DNA of 64,000 nt from Chamaesiphon sp. 341R_metabat_111 (lineage in GTDB: Bacteria > Cyanobacteriota > Cyanobacteriia > Cyanobacteriales > Chamaesiphonaceae), in assembly GCA_025351825.1 (NCBI GenBank), contig JANXVE010000084.1:1-64000 (forward strand), in the 5' to 3' direction. Below are positions 21,021 through 63,282 of the stretch, piece by piece. The notes under the pieces are model-generated. The model was given only the letters and a program-made list of their open reading frames with translations, ran no database searches and had not been told where the DNA came from. The first letter of the stretch is position 1. The number at the start of each line of letters is the position of its first letter. Both the position numbers and the translations under genes were made by a program.

Positions 21021-21302
21021 TCTAGTAATTAGCGTAGATCCAGGGCGGGCACAAGACCACGCCCCTACACAATTAACCTGTAGGGGTGCCCCTGTCTTGT
21101 CTTGACGCATCGACTGGGAGGAAACCTCCCAGTCGATGCGTCGCTGTCTCACCTTTTTTGACGGGGAACCCGTCCAAAGGTGAGCCGCTGTCTTGTCGTT
21201 TTTTTATTCGGGGGAAACCCCCGAATAAAAACGCCGCTTGTGAGTATCCTGGATCTACGGCTAGCACTAGTATTTTCAAGCTGGTGCAAAATGTGAGTCA
21301 AC
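21021..21302. repeat. Family A repeat, copy 4, carrying inserted hairpins
   Basis: The left inner arm (AGCGTAGATCCAGGG), the core CGCCCCTACA / TGTAGGGGTGCCCC and the right arm (GGATCTACGGCTAGCAC ... TGCAAAATGTGAGTC) can be aligned to copies 2 and 3. Between GTGCCCC (21085-21092) and TTGTGAGTATCC (21238) about 145 extra bases are inserted, made of three hairpins in a row. Confidence 0.75.
21093..21240. repeat. Three tandem family D hairpins nested in a family A element
   Basis: Each unit has the form TGTCTTG (or TGTCTC), stem, GGGAAACCC-like loop, stem, CCGCTG (or TCGCTG). Unit 1 (21093-21146) has an 18-pair perfect stem, GACGCATCGACTGGGAGG with its inverse, and an AAA loop. Unit 2 (21145-21190) pairs CTCACCTTT and GACGGG around GAA. 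Unit 3 (21189-21240) pairs ATTCGGGGG around AAA plus an outer T/A-rich stem. Units overlap by the shared CTGTCT junction. The stems differ in sequence but remain paired. Confidence 0.8.
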
Positions 21303-21749: not shown

Positions 21750-21935
21750 GTTAGTCTCTGTGACGGGTCGATCTGAGGATTGTTCCGCTCCCAACTGTCA
21801 CCGTCTCGTGCTAGATTGGACTAGCTTAGAGTCGGGAAAGTTTGGTAAAAATCCAAGACTGTGCCGCAACTGTGATGGAGCGAAAGCTTCGAGTCAGAAG
21901 ACCGGATCTGAGTATACTGAAATTGATTCAGTACC
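21750..21935 (+). promoter_or_regulatory. Cobalamin riboswitch upstream of cobG-cobH-cobI
   Basis: The conserved core is visible: GTCGGGAAAGTTTGGT with ATCCAAGACTG, then GCCGCAACTGTGATGG (the B12 box, 21863-21878) and GAGTCAGAAGACCGG. It is followed by TACTGAA...TTCAGTA (21914-21932), a small hairpin that could be the output stem, about 35 bases before the ribosome-binding site GGAAGGAG (21966-21973). Adenosyl- or methylcobalamin binding would repress the B12 genes downstream. Control at translation start is more likely than termination because no T run follows the hairpin; that is inferred. Confidence 0.9.
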
Positions 21936-21983: not shown

Positions 21984-23420
21984 GTGATTGCCGAACACGC
22001 GATCTGTCCAGATATTTATCATCCTGCGGTGGCGCGGGACGGGTTATTGACTCGGTTGCGAATTCCAGGTGGCGTGCTCAATGTAGCTCAGTGCATGGCG
22101 ATCGAGCAGCTACTCGCCGCAACGAGTTTAGACTACATTCAAGTCACTAATCGTGCCAATTTACAGTTACGGGCACTAACTGAAGATATTGACAAGGAAG
22201 TTTTAACAGCATTAACCAATTGTGGTTTGGCATCGAGCGATCGTGCTGTGGATGGAATTCGCAACATCATGTTGAGTCCAACTGCGGGCATCGATCCGCA
22301 GGAATTAATCGATGTTCGCCCATTGGCTACAGCTTGGCATGATTATCTAACGGATCGTCCCGAACTAGGAATATTATCTACCAAGTTCAGCGTCGGTTTT
22401 GACGGTGGCGGTAGTGTCGGAATTGTCGATCGACCCAATGATATTACGTTATTGGCTGTTAATAACCGTGAATTTGAACTGTATCTGGGGATTGGAGCTA
22501 GTGGATCTGCGCCCCTACAGGTAGGCATTAGACTAGGCGTGGATGAATGCTTACCAATATTGGCAGCGATTGCCCAGACTTATCGACAGGGAATTGAACT
22601 ATTTGGTAGGGATTCACGCCGGAAATTACGACTGCGTGATGTTATTTATCATTGGAGCTTGACAGGTTTTGGTGAGATGGTTCAACGAGAATTCAAGGGT
22701 TCCAGCCGTTTTATTTTTAAAAACCTCGATCGGGAAAGTTCGGAGTTGGGAGTTGGGAGTTGGGAGCATCTAGGGGTACATCAGCAACGTCAATCGGATC
22801 GATATTATCTCGGCATAGTATTACCGTTGGGGCGATGGAATAAGCCGCAGGTAAAAGGCTTGGGTGAAATTGCCGATCGATATGGGAGTGGTGCGATTCG
22901 GCTCACTCCTTGGCAAAATATTATTCTGCCCGATCTGAAATTAGCCGATCTAGAGCGGGTGCAATCATTAGTCACCAAGCTAGGACTAATCCATACAGCG
23001 AATCATCCCAGTAGCTTACTGAGAGCCTGTGCTGGATCGAGTGGTTGTCAATTTGGGGCGACGGATACTCAGCAGGATGCGATCGATCTATCCAATTACA
23101 TAGCCGCAAACTTTACGCTAGATCGACCACTAAGCATTCATTTCAGCGGTTGTGACAAATCTTGTGCCCAACACGATCGGGCTGATATCACGCTCTGGGG
23201 CGTAGAGGGTCAAAATTGTTATCGCCTAGAAATTGCTGGGGCTACAGCCGAATTTGGAGAAGATCCAGCCGCGCTGTGCCCACCAGATCGAGTGCCGATC
23301 TCGATCGGTAAGGCGATCGATGCTTATCATTATCAGCGACTCAATCCCCAAGAATCCTTTCAGGCATTTATCACTCGTCAATCTCCAGCCCAACTGCACC
23401 AAATATTTAATGTCGTCTAA
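21984..23420 (+). CDS. cobG: Precorrin-3B synthase CobG
   Basis: CobG oxidises precorrin-3A to precorrin-3B in the oxygen-dependent cobalamin pathway. It is a relative of sulfite and nitrite reductases with siroheme and a 4Fe-4S cluster. The product has the two-half repeat of that family. The cluster motifs are RACAGSSGCQFG and SGCDKSC (C-x5-C and C-x3-C) near the C-terminus. The start is GTG at 21984, eleven bases after GGAAGGAG. An in-frame insert derived from GTTGGGA heptamers (residues about 252-258) interrupts the protein. The gene overlaps cobH by 11 bases and is preceded by a cobalamin riboswitch. Confidence 0.88.
   Translation: MIAEHAICPDIYHPAVARDGLLTRLRIPGGVLNVAQCMAIEQLLAATSLDYIQVTNRANLQLRALTEDIDKEVLTALTNCGLASSDRAVDGIRNIMLSPTAGIDPQELIDVRPLATAWHDYLTDRPELGILSTKFSVGFDGGGSVGIVDRPNDITLLAVNNREFELYLGIGASGSAPLQVGIRLGVDECLPILAAIAQTYRQGIELFGRDSRRKLRLRDVIYHWSLTGFGEMVQREFKGSSRFIFKNLDRESSELGVGSWEHLGVHQQRQSDRYYLGIVLPLGRWNKPQVKGLGEIADRYGSGAIRLTPWQNIILPDLKLADLERVQSLVTKLGLIHTANHPSSLLRACAGSSGCQFGATDTQQDAIDLSNYIAANFTLDRPLSIHFSGCDKSCAQHDRADITLWGVEGQNCYRLEIAGATAEFGEDPAALCPPDRVPISIGKAIDAYHYQRLNPQESFQAFITRQSPAQLHQIFNVV
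22738..22766. repeat. GTTGGGA heptamer repeat inside cobG
   Basis: Three to four tandem copies of GTTGGGA lie within the coding frame of cobG, encoding ELGVGSWE. The identical unit is found between genes at 16351-16372 and 37279-37305. Three copies span 21 bases, so the frame is kept. Confidence 0.75.
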
Positions 23421-24063
23421 AAGTATTGTTTCAGCACCATTACATTACATCCGCGACGGCGCGGAAATTTACCGTCAATCATTTGCGATGATTCGATCGG
23501 AAGCAAATTTAGATATACTGCCCGCTGATTTTAATTCAGTTGCCGTGAGATTAATTCATGCTTCGGGCATGATAGATATAGTTAACGATCTAGACTATTC
23601 GATCGATGCCGTGCGGGTCGGCAGACAGGCACTAGCCGCTGGTGCGCCCATTCTGTGCGATGCTCAGATGGTGGCAAATGGCGTAACGCGCAAGCGTCTA
23701 CCTGTGAATAATCAAGTAATCTGTACCCTGCCAGACCCACAAGTACCAGAACTTGCAGCTCAATTAGAGAATACTCGATCGGCTGCGGCGTTGGAATTAT
23801 GGCGACCATACTTAGCTGGAGCGGTAATTGCGATCGGCAATGCCCCGACAGCCCTATTTAGGTTATTGGAAATGCTCGACGAGGGCGCACCAAAACCCGC
23901 GCTGATTCTCGGTTTTCCAGTTGGCTTTGTCGGCGCACTAGAATCGAAAGCAGCTCTGGCAGCAGATAGTCGGGGGATACCTTTCCTGACTATTCATGGG
24001 CGACGTGGCGGTAGTGCAATGGCAGCAGCAGCAGTAAATGCGTTGGCAATGGAGCAGGAGTAA
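23410..24063 (+). CDS. cobH: Precorrin-8X methylmutase CobH
   Basis: CobH moves a methyl group from C11 to C12 of precorrin-8X, giving hydrogenobyrinate. The 217-residue product has the family features: YIRDGAEIYRQSFAMIRSEA, VRLIHASGMIDIV with the catalytic His, DAQMVANGV, IGNAPTALFRLLEM and GFPVGFVGALESK. The start ATG at 23410 overlaps the end of cobG, which suggests translational coupling. An upstream in-frame extension to 23233 would lie wholly in cobG and does not fit the family. Confidence 0.93.
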   Translation: MSSKSIVSAPLHYIRDGAEIYRQSFAMIRSEANLDILPADFNSVAVRLIHASGMIDIVNDLDYSIDAVRVGRQALAAGAPILCDAQMVANGVTRKRLPVNNQVICTLPDPQVPELAAQLENTRSAAALELWRPYLAGAVIAIGNAPTALFRLLEMLDEGAPKPALILGFPVGFVGALESKAALAADSRGIPFLTIHGRRGGSAMAAAAVNALAMEQE

Positions 24064-24067
24064 GATT

Positions 24068-24778
24068 GTGGTTGCAATTCGGGTGGGAAAATTATATGGA
24101 ATTGGGGTTGGCCCTGGGGACCCTGAGCTGTTGACGCTCAAGGCATTTCGGCTATTGCAGTCGGCTCAAGTCGTGGCTTATCAATCGGCAAACGATCGAG
24201 ATAGTATTGCTCGATCGATTGTGGCACCTTATCTGACTGGCAATCAGATCGAAGTCTGCTTTCACTTTCCGCGCGCCCTCGATCCTGAGGCTGCTAATGA
24301 GCTGTACGCAGATGCAATTAGACCGATTGTGGCTCACTTGTCGGCGGGTCGAGATGTGGTGGTATTGTGTTGTGGCGACCCGTTATTTTACGGCTCATTC
24401 ATGTATTTGTTTACCCGACTAGCCGATCGATTTGAGACGGAGATCGTGCCTGGGGTATGTTCACCAATGGCGGCAGCAGCGGCAATTGGCACCCCATTGT
24501 GTTATCAGAATGATATTTTTAGCGTCCTGTCAGCAACCCTACCGACAGAAAAACTTAGAGCACAGTTAATCAATGCTGATGCCGTCGGCATTATCAAGCT
24601 CCGTCGCCATTTTGCGAAAGTGCGTCAGATTCTCAGCGATCTAGATCTATTATCCCGTGCTAAGTATATCGAACGAGCTACCGCGATCGACCAAAAAATT
24701 ATTCCGATCGAATCTGTCAATCCCCAAGATGTCCCTTATTTTTCAATGATCCTAGTGCCCAGCCAAACCCAGTTCTAA
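24068..24778 (+). CDS. cobI: Precorrin-2 C20-methyltransferase CobI
   Basis: CobI adds a methyl from SAM at C20 of precorrin-2 (or its cobalt form in CbiL). The 236-residue protein has the tetrapyrrole methylase motifs: LYGIGVGPGDPELLTLKA at the N-terminus, VVLCCGDPLFYGSF and VPGVCSPMAAAAAIG. I chose the GTG at 24068 because GGAG precedes it and it begins just after the cobH stop; ATG at 24038 would extend back into cobH. It is the third gene of the riboswitch-led operon. Its 3' end overlaps the convergent gene at 24752 by 27 bases. Confidence 0.93.
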   Translation: MVAIRVGKLYGIGVGPGDPELLTLKAFRLLQSAQVVAYQSANDRDSIARSIVAPYLTGNQIEVCFHFPRALDPEAANELYADAIRPIVAHLSAGRDVVVLCCGDPLFYGSFMYLFTRLADRFETEIVPGVCSPMAAAAAIGTPLCYQNDIFSVLSATLPTEKLRAQLINADAVGIIKLRRHFAKVRQILSDLDLLSRAKYIERATAIDQKIIPIESVNPQDVPYFSMILVPSQTQF

Positions 24779-33686: not shown

Positions 33687-33720
33687 AAAAACCCGACTTT
33701 TTGAAAAGTCGGGTTTTTTA
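33687..33720. terminator. Bidirectional terminator between coxC and murD
   Basis: AAAACCCGACTTTT and AAAAGTCGGGTTTT form a 14-pair stem flanked by A and T runs, so it can end transcripts from either side. The same stem recurs at 45915-45945 and 63249-63282. Confidence 0.9.
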
Positions 33721-41334: not shown

Positions 41335-41547
41335 CGAAGATCTATACCCCACCCTAGCCCTCCCCTTGTAAAGGGGAGGGGACAAGAGTCCCACTTTTCA
41401 AGGGGAAATTCATCTCATATATAAATTGAAGGTAGTCAACGATAACCTAGCTCCTCCCCGCTTGGTTCGCTAGCACTGTCGGGGAACCCGAACAGTACGC
41501 GCATCCGCTTTCTAAGGGGAGGTTGGGTGGGGTAAAGATCTACGCGG
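41335..41547. repeat. Family C repeat, both halves, with spacer
   Basis: The left half (41335-41380) reads GAAGATCTATACCCCACCC, AGCCCTCCCC and GGGGAGGGG. The right half (41509-41547) reads TTTCTAAGGGGAGGTTGGG, then GTAAAGATCTACGC. They are inverse to each other. Between them are about 125 bases that include an inserted family D hairpin. No gene is visible in 41311-41673. Confidence 0.65.
41460..41508. repeat. Family D hairpin inside family C
   Basis: ACTGTCGGG-GAA-CCCGAACAGT pairs around a GAA loop (one asymmetric base), within GCTTGG ... CATCCGC, which corresponds to the conserved flanks of family D. Confidence 0.65.
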
Positions 41548-45899: not shown

Positions 45900-45914
45900 C
45901 TTTAGAGACGGTCA

Positions 45915-45945
45915 CAAACCCGACTTTTTGAAAAAGTCGGGTTTG
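45915..45945. terminator. Intrinsic terminator after ubiD
   Basis: CAAACCCGACTTTTT and AAAAAGTCGGGTTTG form a 15-pair stem with a one-base loop centre. The same stem is used at 33687 and 63249. Confidence 0.88.
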
Positions 45946-45986
45946 TTGGGTTGGTTGCCATAATGGTTGAAATTTTGAGGTGAATC

Positions 45987-50559: not shown

Positions 50560-50612
50560 TGTCTTGTCTCGCGAAACCGTCGGGAAACCCGACGAGCGCG
50601 AGCCGCTGCCCC
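50560..50612. repeat. Family D hairpin between nrtC and nrtD
   Basis: TGTCTTGT, then CTCGCG, AAAC, CGTCGGG-AAA-CCCGACG, AGC, GCGAG and CCGCTGCC. The stem has seven inner and five or six outer pairs. Ends and loop match the three hairpins at 21093-21240 while the stem bases differ. From 50613 to 50690 there is further C- and G-rich repeat material. Confidence 0.75.
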
Positions 50613-54110: not shown

Positions 54111-54127
54111 TTTCTAAGGGGAGGTTG

Positions 54128-54174
54128 TCTTGACGCGCTAAACCCTCGGGGAACCCGAGGAGCGCGCGTCGCTG
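54128..54174. repeat. Family D hairpin inside family C
   Basis: TCTTG, GACGCGC, TAAAC, CCTCGGG-GAA-CCCGAGG, A, GCGCGCGTC, GCTG. Removing these 47 bases gives GAGGTTGGGTGGGG, the uninterrupted family C sequence seen at 41523-41536. Confidence 0.8.
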
Positions 54175-58108: not shown

Positions 58109-58150
58109 ATAAAAGATTTGTCCGTCAATTAACACTCAGACCTACCTAAA

Positions 58151-58190
58151 ATTAGGGTAGGGGTAATTCATGAATTACCCCTACCCTAAT
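58151..58190. terminator. Perfect 40-base palindrome after the ABC-F gene
   Basis: ATTAGGGTAGGGGTAATTCA (58151-58170) is followed at once by its exact inverse, 20 of 20 bases. It lies 20 bases after the ABC-F stop codon, followed on that strand by TTTTAGG. It probably ends the transcript, though its length and lack of a loop are unusual. Confidence 0.7.
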
Positions 58191-58209
58191 TCTGGTGTCA
58201 AATGTTTAT

Positions 58210-63248: not shown

Positions 63249-63282
63249 AGAAACCCGACTTTTTCCAAAAAGTCGGGTTTCT
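63249..63282. terminator. Bidirectional terminator between bvdR and aroQ
   Basis: AGAAACCCGACTTTTT and AAAAAGTCGGGTTTCT form a 16-pair stem around two bases. It touches the aroQ stop codon and lies 17 bases after the bvdR stop. Confidence 0.88.

Follow-up and report, generated by a model that had tools for sequence, protein, structure and literature searches.

A small hairpin element of Chamaesiphon that lands in its own tails and probably moves as single-stranded DNA

The window, by which is meant the whole 64,000-nt stretch of a Chamaesiphon genome analysed here, contains on its + strand a gene run of cobG, precorrin-8X methylmutase and cobI (21984-24778; the NIR_SIR-type protein of this run exceeds the CobG cut-off), which lies downstream of a cobalamin riboswitch match (21796-21920, +; 31.8 bits against a gathering threshold of 31.5). 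The riboswitch is the sole Rfam match in the window and no Rfam family matches the hairpin element that is the subject of this report. Three units of this element span positions 21094-21238 and are held in a larger host repeat (21022-21270) with 34-nt inverted arms at 21022-21055 and 21237-21270. At the orthologous locus in two related genomes (G001, G008), ∼26-30 bp stand in place of ∼327 bp, and the host repeat with its triple is missing.

The three tandem hairpins described in the original prediction are real, and their stacking with shared junction bases is explained by the way in which they are assembled. The triple is an element D that carries an element A in its 5′ tail and is followed by an element B. 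The 5′ tail of D, GTCTT (21094-21098, +), is cut off from its body (21146-21189, +) by the nested A (21099-21145, +; 47 bp with a perfect 18-bp stem; covariance model score 65.7 bits, E 2.1e-15), giving the pattern GTCTT^[A]^GTCTCACC...GAGCCGCT, and B (21190-21238, +; 49 bp, 53.5 bits, E 9.7e-12) stands head-to-tail behind the CGCT end of D. The same composite, D(A)B, is found at ∼8 further places in the genome. As DNA, the units fold at −24.1 kcal/mol (unit 1, element A; z −10.35), −12.5 kcal/mol (unit 2, element D; z −3.99) and −15.2 kcal/mol (unit 3, element B; z −5.36). All 18 of 18 stem positions of unit 1 are paired, as had been noticed, and in this it is atypical of subfamily A, the remaining copies of which are imperfect with an internal loop of CACAA opposite TCGA. 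In the window copy TCGA stands where the others carry CACAA, such that the left arm has been homogenised to the right.

Three further copies had been proposed elsewhere in the window, of which two are full members of the family. A type-C element (50561-50607, +; 62.8 bits) lies between nitrate-transporter genes (TIGR01184 ntrCD on either side), where it occupies the loop of GGGGGGTCT^GCCCCCC, and ∼254 bp including this copy are missing in G008. Another type-C element (54127-54173, +; 65.2 bits) is inserted at GGGGAGGTT^GGGTGGGG, and an unfilled copy of this target is present at about 41508-41532 (+). The third proposed copy (41460-41508, +) lacks the shared ends that had been ascribed to it and is a diverged, weakly folding (z −1.96) sister-type hairpin, GCTTGG...CATCCGC, inserted in CCTCCCC^TTTCTAAGGGGAGG, with intact relatives at L074, L075 and L077-L080. 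This sister type (also at L090) has copies of its own and favours a separate target palindrome, GTTGGGTTTC..CAACCCAAC. Two other kinds of inverted repeat occur in the window. The hairpin AAACCCGACTTTT..AAAAGTCGGGTTT is present three times (33687-33718, 45914-45946 and 63249-63282); these hairpins are possibly terminators, and elsewhere, at loci L033 and L034, the element is inserted within the loop of this kind of hairpin. The perfect palindrome TAGGGGTAATTCATGAATTACCCCTA (58150-58191) also flanks a RAYT-like gene of this genome (locus L031), which suggests a separate RAYT-linked family that is used as a target by the hairpin element.

A covariance model built from 11 copies (copies counted at E≤0.001, with E-values that are rough) found 73 copies in this 4.06-Mb draft genome and from 20 to at least 144 in each of eight congeners, several of which are draft bins. 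A search without further copies would have refuted the prediction, and this outcome did not occur. Of 293 genomes sampled from the order, all nine of Chamaesiphon have matches at E≤1e-6, as do 3 of the 284 outside the genus (one from the sister genus and two from another family), which have 1-2 copies apiece. In a pattern search of a public genome collection, 49 of the 50 matches are in Chamaesiphon and the remaining one is in a Scytonema bin. Subfamily A was not found in viral contigs or plasmids. The stems had been thought unrelated from copy to copy, but they form subfamilies that each recur many times in the genome, including A (GTCTTGACGCACACAA..GGAGGAAACCTCC..TCGATGCGTCGCT), B (GTCTTGTCGTTTT..AAAACGCCGCT) and C (GTCTTGNNTCGCTAAACC..), together with hybrids that mix the outer and inner stems of different subfamilies.

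The element is 47-50 bp in length and consists of GTCTT, an imperfect hairpin and (C)CGCT. Its parts are, in order, an unpaired GTCTT 5′ tail, an outer stem, an internal loop, an inner stem with an apical loop of AAA or GAA, and an unpaired GCT 3′ tail, and in nearly all copies A-T (GTCTTGA..TCGCT) or else a T.C mismatch (GTCTTGT..CCGCT) forms the second outer pair. The prediction that pairing is kept through compensatory change is borne out by an alignment of 29 C-type sequences, in which 97% of cells are paired and 11 of 14 stem pairs show two-sided changes. The covariation score of this alignment is 0.398, compared with 0.115 ± 0.015 for shuffles and ≤0.069 for slid controls, the alignment being ungapped and its structure taken from the same sequences, which favours it over the slid controls and leaves the two-sided changes unaffected.

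How the arms stay matched is indicated by copies in which one arm has been rewritten to match the other, the left to the right in window unit 1 and at L168, and the right to the left at L204 and L206. The loop is also found in inverted form, as TTC, TTT or TTA in 11 of 98 distinct cores (GAA or AAA in the others), and two orthologous copies in an integrase gene, one in this genome and one in G006, differ nowhere in the element but in the loop, which is AAA in one and TTT in the other. Template switching between short inverted repeats is known to give arm homogenisation and spacer inversion (PMC8604942), and hairpins can acquire compensatory changes through it (PMC8794818). The perfected arms and the exactly inverted loops point to fold-back template switching as the process that keeps the arms matched while the sequence changes, and this directly supports the earlier suggestion of a process making perfect inverses. 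A further contribution to the upkeep of pairing may come from selection, during movement, for a single strand that can fold. The hairpins are a natural record of how pairing is maintained, with flipped-loop orthologues and perfected arms favouring template switching over slow paired mutation.

The insertion of the element follows an exact rule. In all 120 distinct targets position −1 is T, and position −2 is C in 70, T in 37, A in 10 and G in 3, these statistics excluding 38 copies outside the TCTTG...CGC(T) frame (degenerate, E type or partial). Of 79 target families, 22 have joined flanks that match an empty site elsewhere exactly (18 non-trivial, and four that are trivial self-junctions), never with duplication or loss. 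The element thus inserts precisely 3′ of T, usually in CT or TT, without duplication or loss of the target, as IS200/IS605-type elements insert 3′ of a fixed short target without duplicating it. Few mobile elements as small as this allow insertion to be followed base by base, from the exact target through clean empty sites in conserved genes to the order of nesting. Such clean insertions mark the units as mobile DNA, against a functional RNA, one of the possibilities raised in the original prediction, for which there is no support from Rfam or from their orientation relative to genes (13 same, 18 opposite). The prediction is partly confirmed in its observations and partly supported in its interpretation.

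The element also uses itself as a target, both in its unpaired tails (GTCTT^ and CGCT^) and in its loops. The distinct targets within its own copies lie after GTCTT (16), after CGCT (7), in the internal loop (2), in the apical loop (1) and at T11 (2). Because its tails serve as landing sites, head-to-tail stacks and nested copies arise, including the triple in the window, and nested copies split their host element exactly behind GTCTT, after which the host resumes (L178, L180, L181, L204 and D of the window). Among non-tandem targets, 24% lie in a loop closed by ≥5 bp, compared with 8% of control sites (p=0.007), and this enrichment is too modest for the proposal that every insertion occurs in a hairpin loop, which was rejected. 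The TAGGGG-type palindromes near RAYT-like genes are among the targets of the element.

Copies are also present within genes, with gene context judged from open frames rather than annotation. Eight copies lie in frames of ≥250 codons and all eight are 48 bp, compared with none of 77 copies of other lengths (Fisher p=0.002, a post hoc test on well-supported frames only); in any frame of ≥400 nt the numbers are 13 of 68 copies of 48 bp and 3 of 77 of other lengths (p=0.003). On average 4.8 of the six frames are open in 48-bp copies and 3.7 in copies of 47 or 49 bp. Copies of 48 bp, or 16 codons, without stops persist in frame within genes, and Pfam supports those that carry them as encoding MutS, a CYP38-like cyclophilin, a phage-type integrase, two IS66 transposases and a DDE transposase. 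In the mutS gene of this genome (G000:C32:32545-33078; L006, L300), the 16-codon in-frame insert is near the start, as 48 bp between CACGAGCC and AGAGCC, and the site is uninterrupted in G001, G002, G004 and G008, the empty sites of G002 and G008 bearing substitutions. The integrase gene holds the element in this genome and in G006; G002, G003, G008 and a second copy in G006 have the gene without it.

In this respect the element resembles the RPEs of Rickettsia, palindromic repeats found in frame in unrelated protein genes that include those of DNA repair (PMC10969869, PMC3733652), and with the copies in mutS and other genes the 'selfish peptide' idea, known from Rickettsia, is extended to a cyanobacterium that is free-living. 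It differs from RPEs in its presumably unrelated sequence and in being smaller, mainly intergenic and found in the genus Chamaesiphon. The CGTC-tagged REPs are similarly palindromic repeats without a known dedicated transposase and some are intragenic; however, the element has no unpaired CGTC tag, and the authors found theirs in other phyla (PMC3733652). In contrast to a MITE of the IS200/IS605 type, it is a single hairpin without the distinct left- and right-end hairpins of an autonomous IS, and the Y1 genes of the genus have other flanks.

The closest precedent also comes from cyanobacteria. The SDR (small dispersed repeat) elements of Nostoc, for which PMC3116915 cites Elhai and colleagues (2008), are reportedly hairpin families of 21-27 nt that differ in sequence and share a structure with compensatory changes, are nested in their own copies and in larger minitransposons, and are confined to one clade. 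Going by this description, they are similar to the element in being very small cyanobacterial hairpins of sequence-dissimilar families with compensatory changes, nested in their own copies and in a larger repeat, and clade-confined; the element differs in its length of 47-50 bp and its genus. What has been measured here, set against them, is the exact T^ rule, the targeting of own tails, the in-frame genic copies and the signatures of template switching.

A parallel in presumed mode of movement is with REPs and REPINs and their RAYT transposases, which share with the element a short hairpin, a 5′ tag, mid-stem mismatches and many copies, as well as a CT-type rule and a presumed non-autonomous movement as single-stranded DNA, of which only the insertion rule is seen here (PMC3116915, PMC8266576, PMC3733652). 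Like REPs, the copies are many, short, dispersed and mainly intergenic. Unlike REPs and REPINs, the element has GTCTT as its 5′ tail and GCT as the other, no copy in the counted set has an unpaired GTAG or GTGG, no RAYT is flanked by it, its units are paired directly rather than inverted, and it nests in itself. It would appear to work like a REP, although neither a tag nor a flanked RAYT establishes it as one. The cut after (C/T)T, the absence of duplication, the tailed hairpin and the preference for tails and loops together give it a resemblance to single-strand transposition. The reading that we favour, with a probability of about 0.7, is that of a REP/SDR-like, non-autonomous and genus-specific hairpin transposon of 47-50 bp that is probably moved as single-stranded DNA by a trans-acting single-strand transposase. 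In such a mechanism the single strand would move folded into the hairpin, and an enzyme acting in trans, of the candidate class HUH/Y1-type (RAYT/TnpA_REP-like) or a similar single-strand transposase, would cut it behind CT-like dinucleotides and join it. The perfected arms, flipped loops and paired arm changes are as expected of fold-back template switching. A sign of lagging-strand transposition was also sought as strand bias and none was seen, with 65 of 130 copies on the + strand of the 6.28-Mb G006 chromosome (partition test p=0.32, for chromosome strand rather than replication direction).

Which enzyme might move the element divides the remaining possibilities. Tentatively, it could be a REP family moved in trans by a RAYT-like transposase of the genome without flanking it as its own REP. 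The genome has two RAYT-like genes (NF047646, 79.4 and 67.1 bits with a cut-off of 80 bits), TnpA_REP cuts single-stranded REP DNA at a CT that flanks the hairpin 5′ or 3′ (PMC8266576), in agreement with insertion after CT, and the architecture with its mid-stem mismatches is similar. However, both genes are flanked by TAGGGG-type palindromes that are unrelated to the element, and E. coli TnpA_REP needs GTAG for REP binding (PMC8266576), which the element does not have. Counting against the favoured reading too, none of the Y1_Tnp (PF01797) genes at 28 loci across the genus has the element on both sides, and no Y1 gene was detected in G008 (77% complete), which yet has 20 copies. We regard it as rather unlikely that the element represents an undescribed class of hairpin mobile DNA, in which an enzyme that is neither a RAYT nor a known Y1 transposase would move the single strand, own tails would act as landing sites from which nested towers grow, and template switching during replication would keep the stem foldable. 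The missing transposase is a concrete and testable question.

Spread through an RNA intermediate, with the hairpin transcribed, reverse transcribed and inserted, is said to have been proposed for the Nostoc SDR elements and is less likely here, indeed improbable. The hairpin structure and its compensatory changes would suit it and eight of nine genomes of the genus have reverse-transcriptase genes, but none was found in the 77%-complete G008 in spite of its 20 copies, G005 and G002 have a single one each despite ∼100 copies apiece, orientation relative to genes is unbiased, Rfam has no match, and the insertions are exact by a CT/TT rule at the level of DNA. Very unlikely, too, is that tandem duplication or slippage, and not self-insertion, built the stacks: identical tandem B copies on C78 and (GTCTT)n runs at L200 are in keeping with slippage, whereas stacked units belong to different subfamilies and the host elements listed above are split exactly after GTCTT and then resume. 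That the hairpins are non-mobile regulatory RNAs or cruciforms (terminators or mRNA stabilisers) under purifying selection on pairing is highly improbable and as a full account is contradicted, with stable folds, covariation and mostly intergenic copies on its side and, against it, clean presence or absence at orthologous and paralogous sites, nesting of copies in one another, insertion within the coding frames of unrelated genes and no bias in orientation, a co-opted role at single loci being possible.

Two further observations concern the genomes that carry this putative single-strand transposon. A copy in the metagenome-assembled genome of Scytonema sp. RU_4_4 (L250:2101-2148) is identical to Chamaesiphon copies L007 and L212 and lies in frame within an IS66 transposase gene, and is the result of either horizontal transfer on an IS or contamination of the bin. 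In the genome studied here (G000), stacks of the element lie near the ends of contigs C13, C78, C108, C109, C111, C149, C183 and C186, which suggests that the stacks break the assembly.
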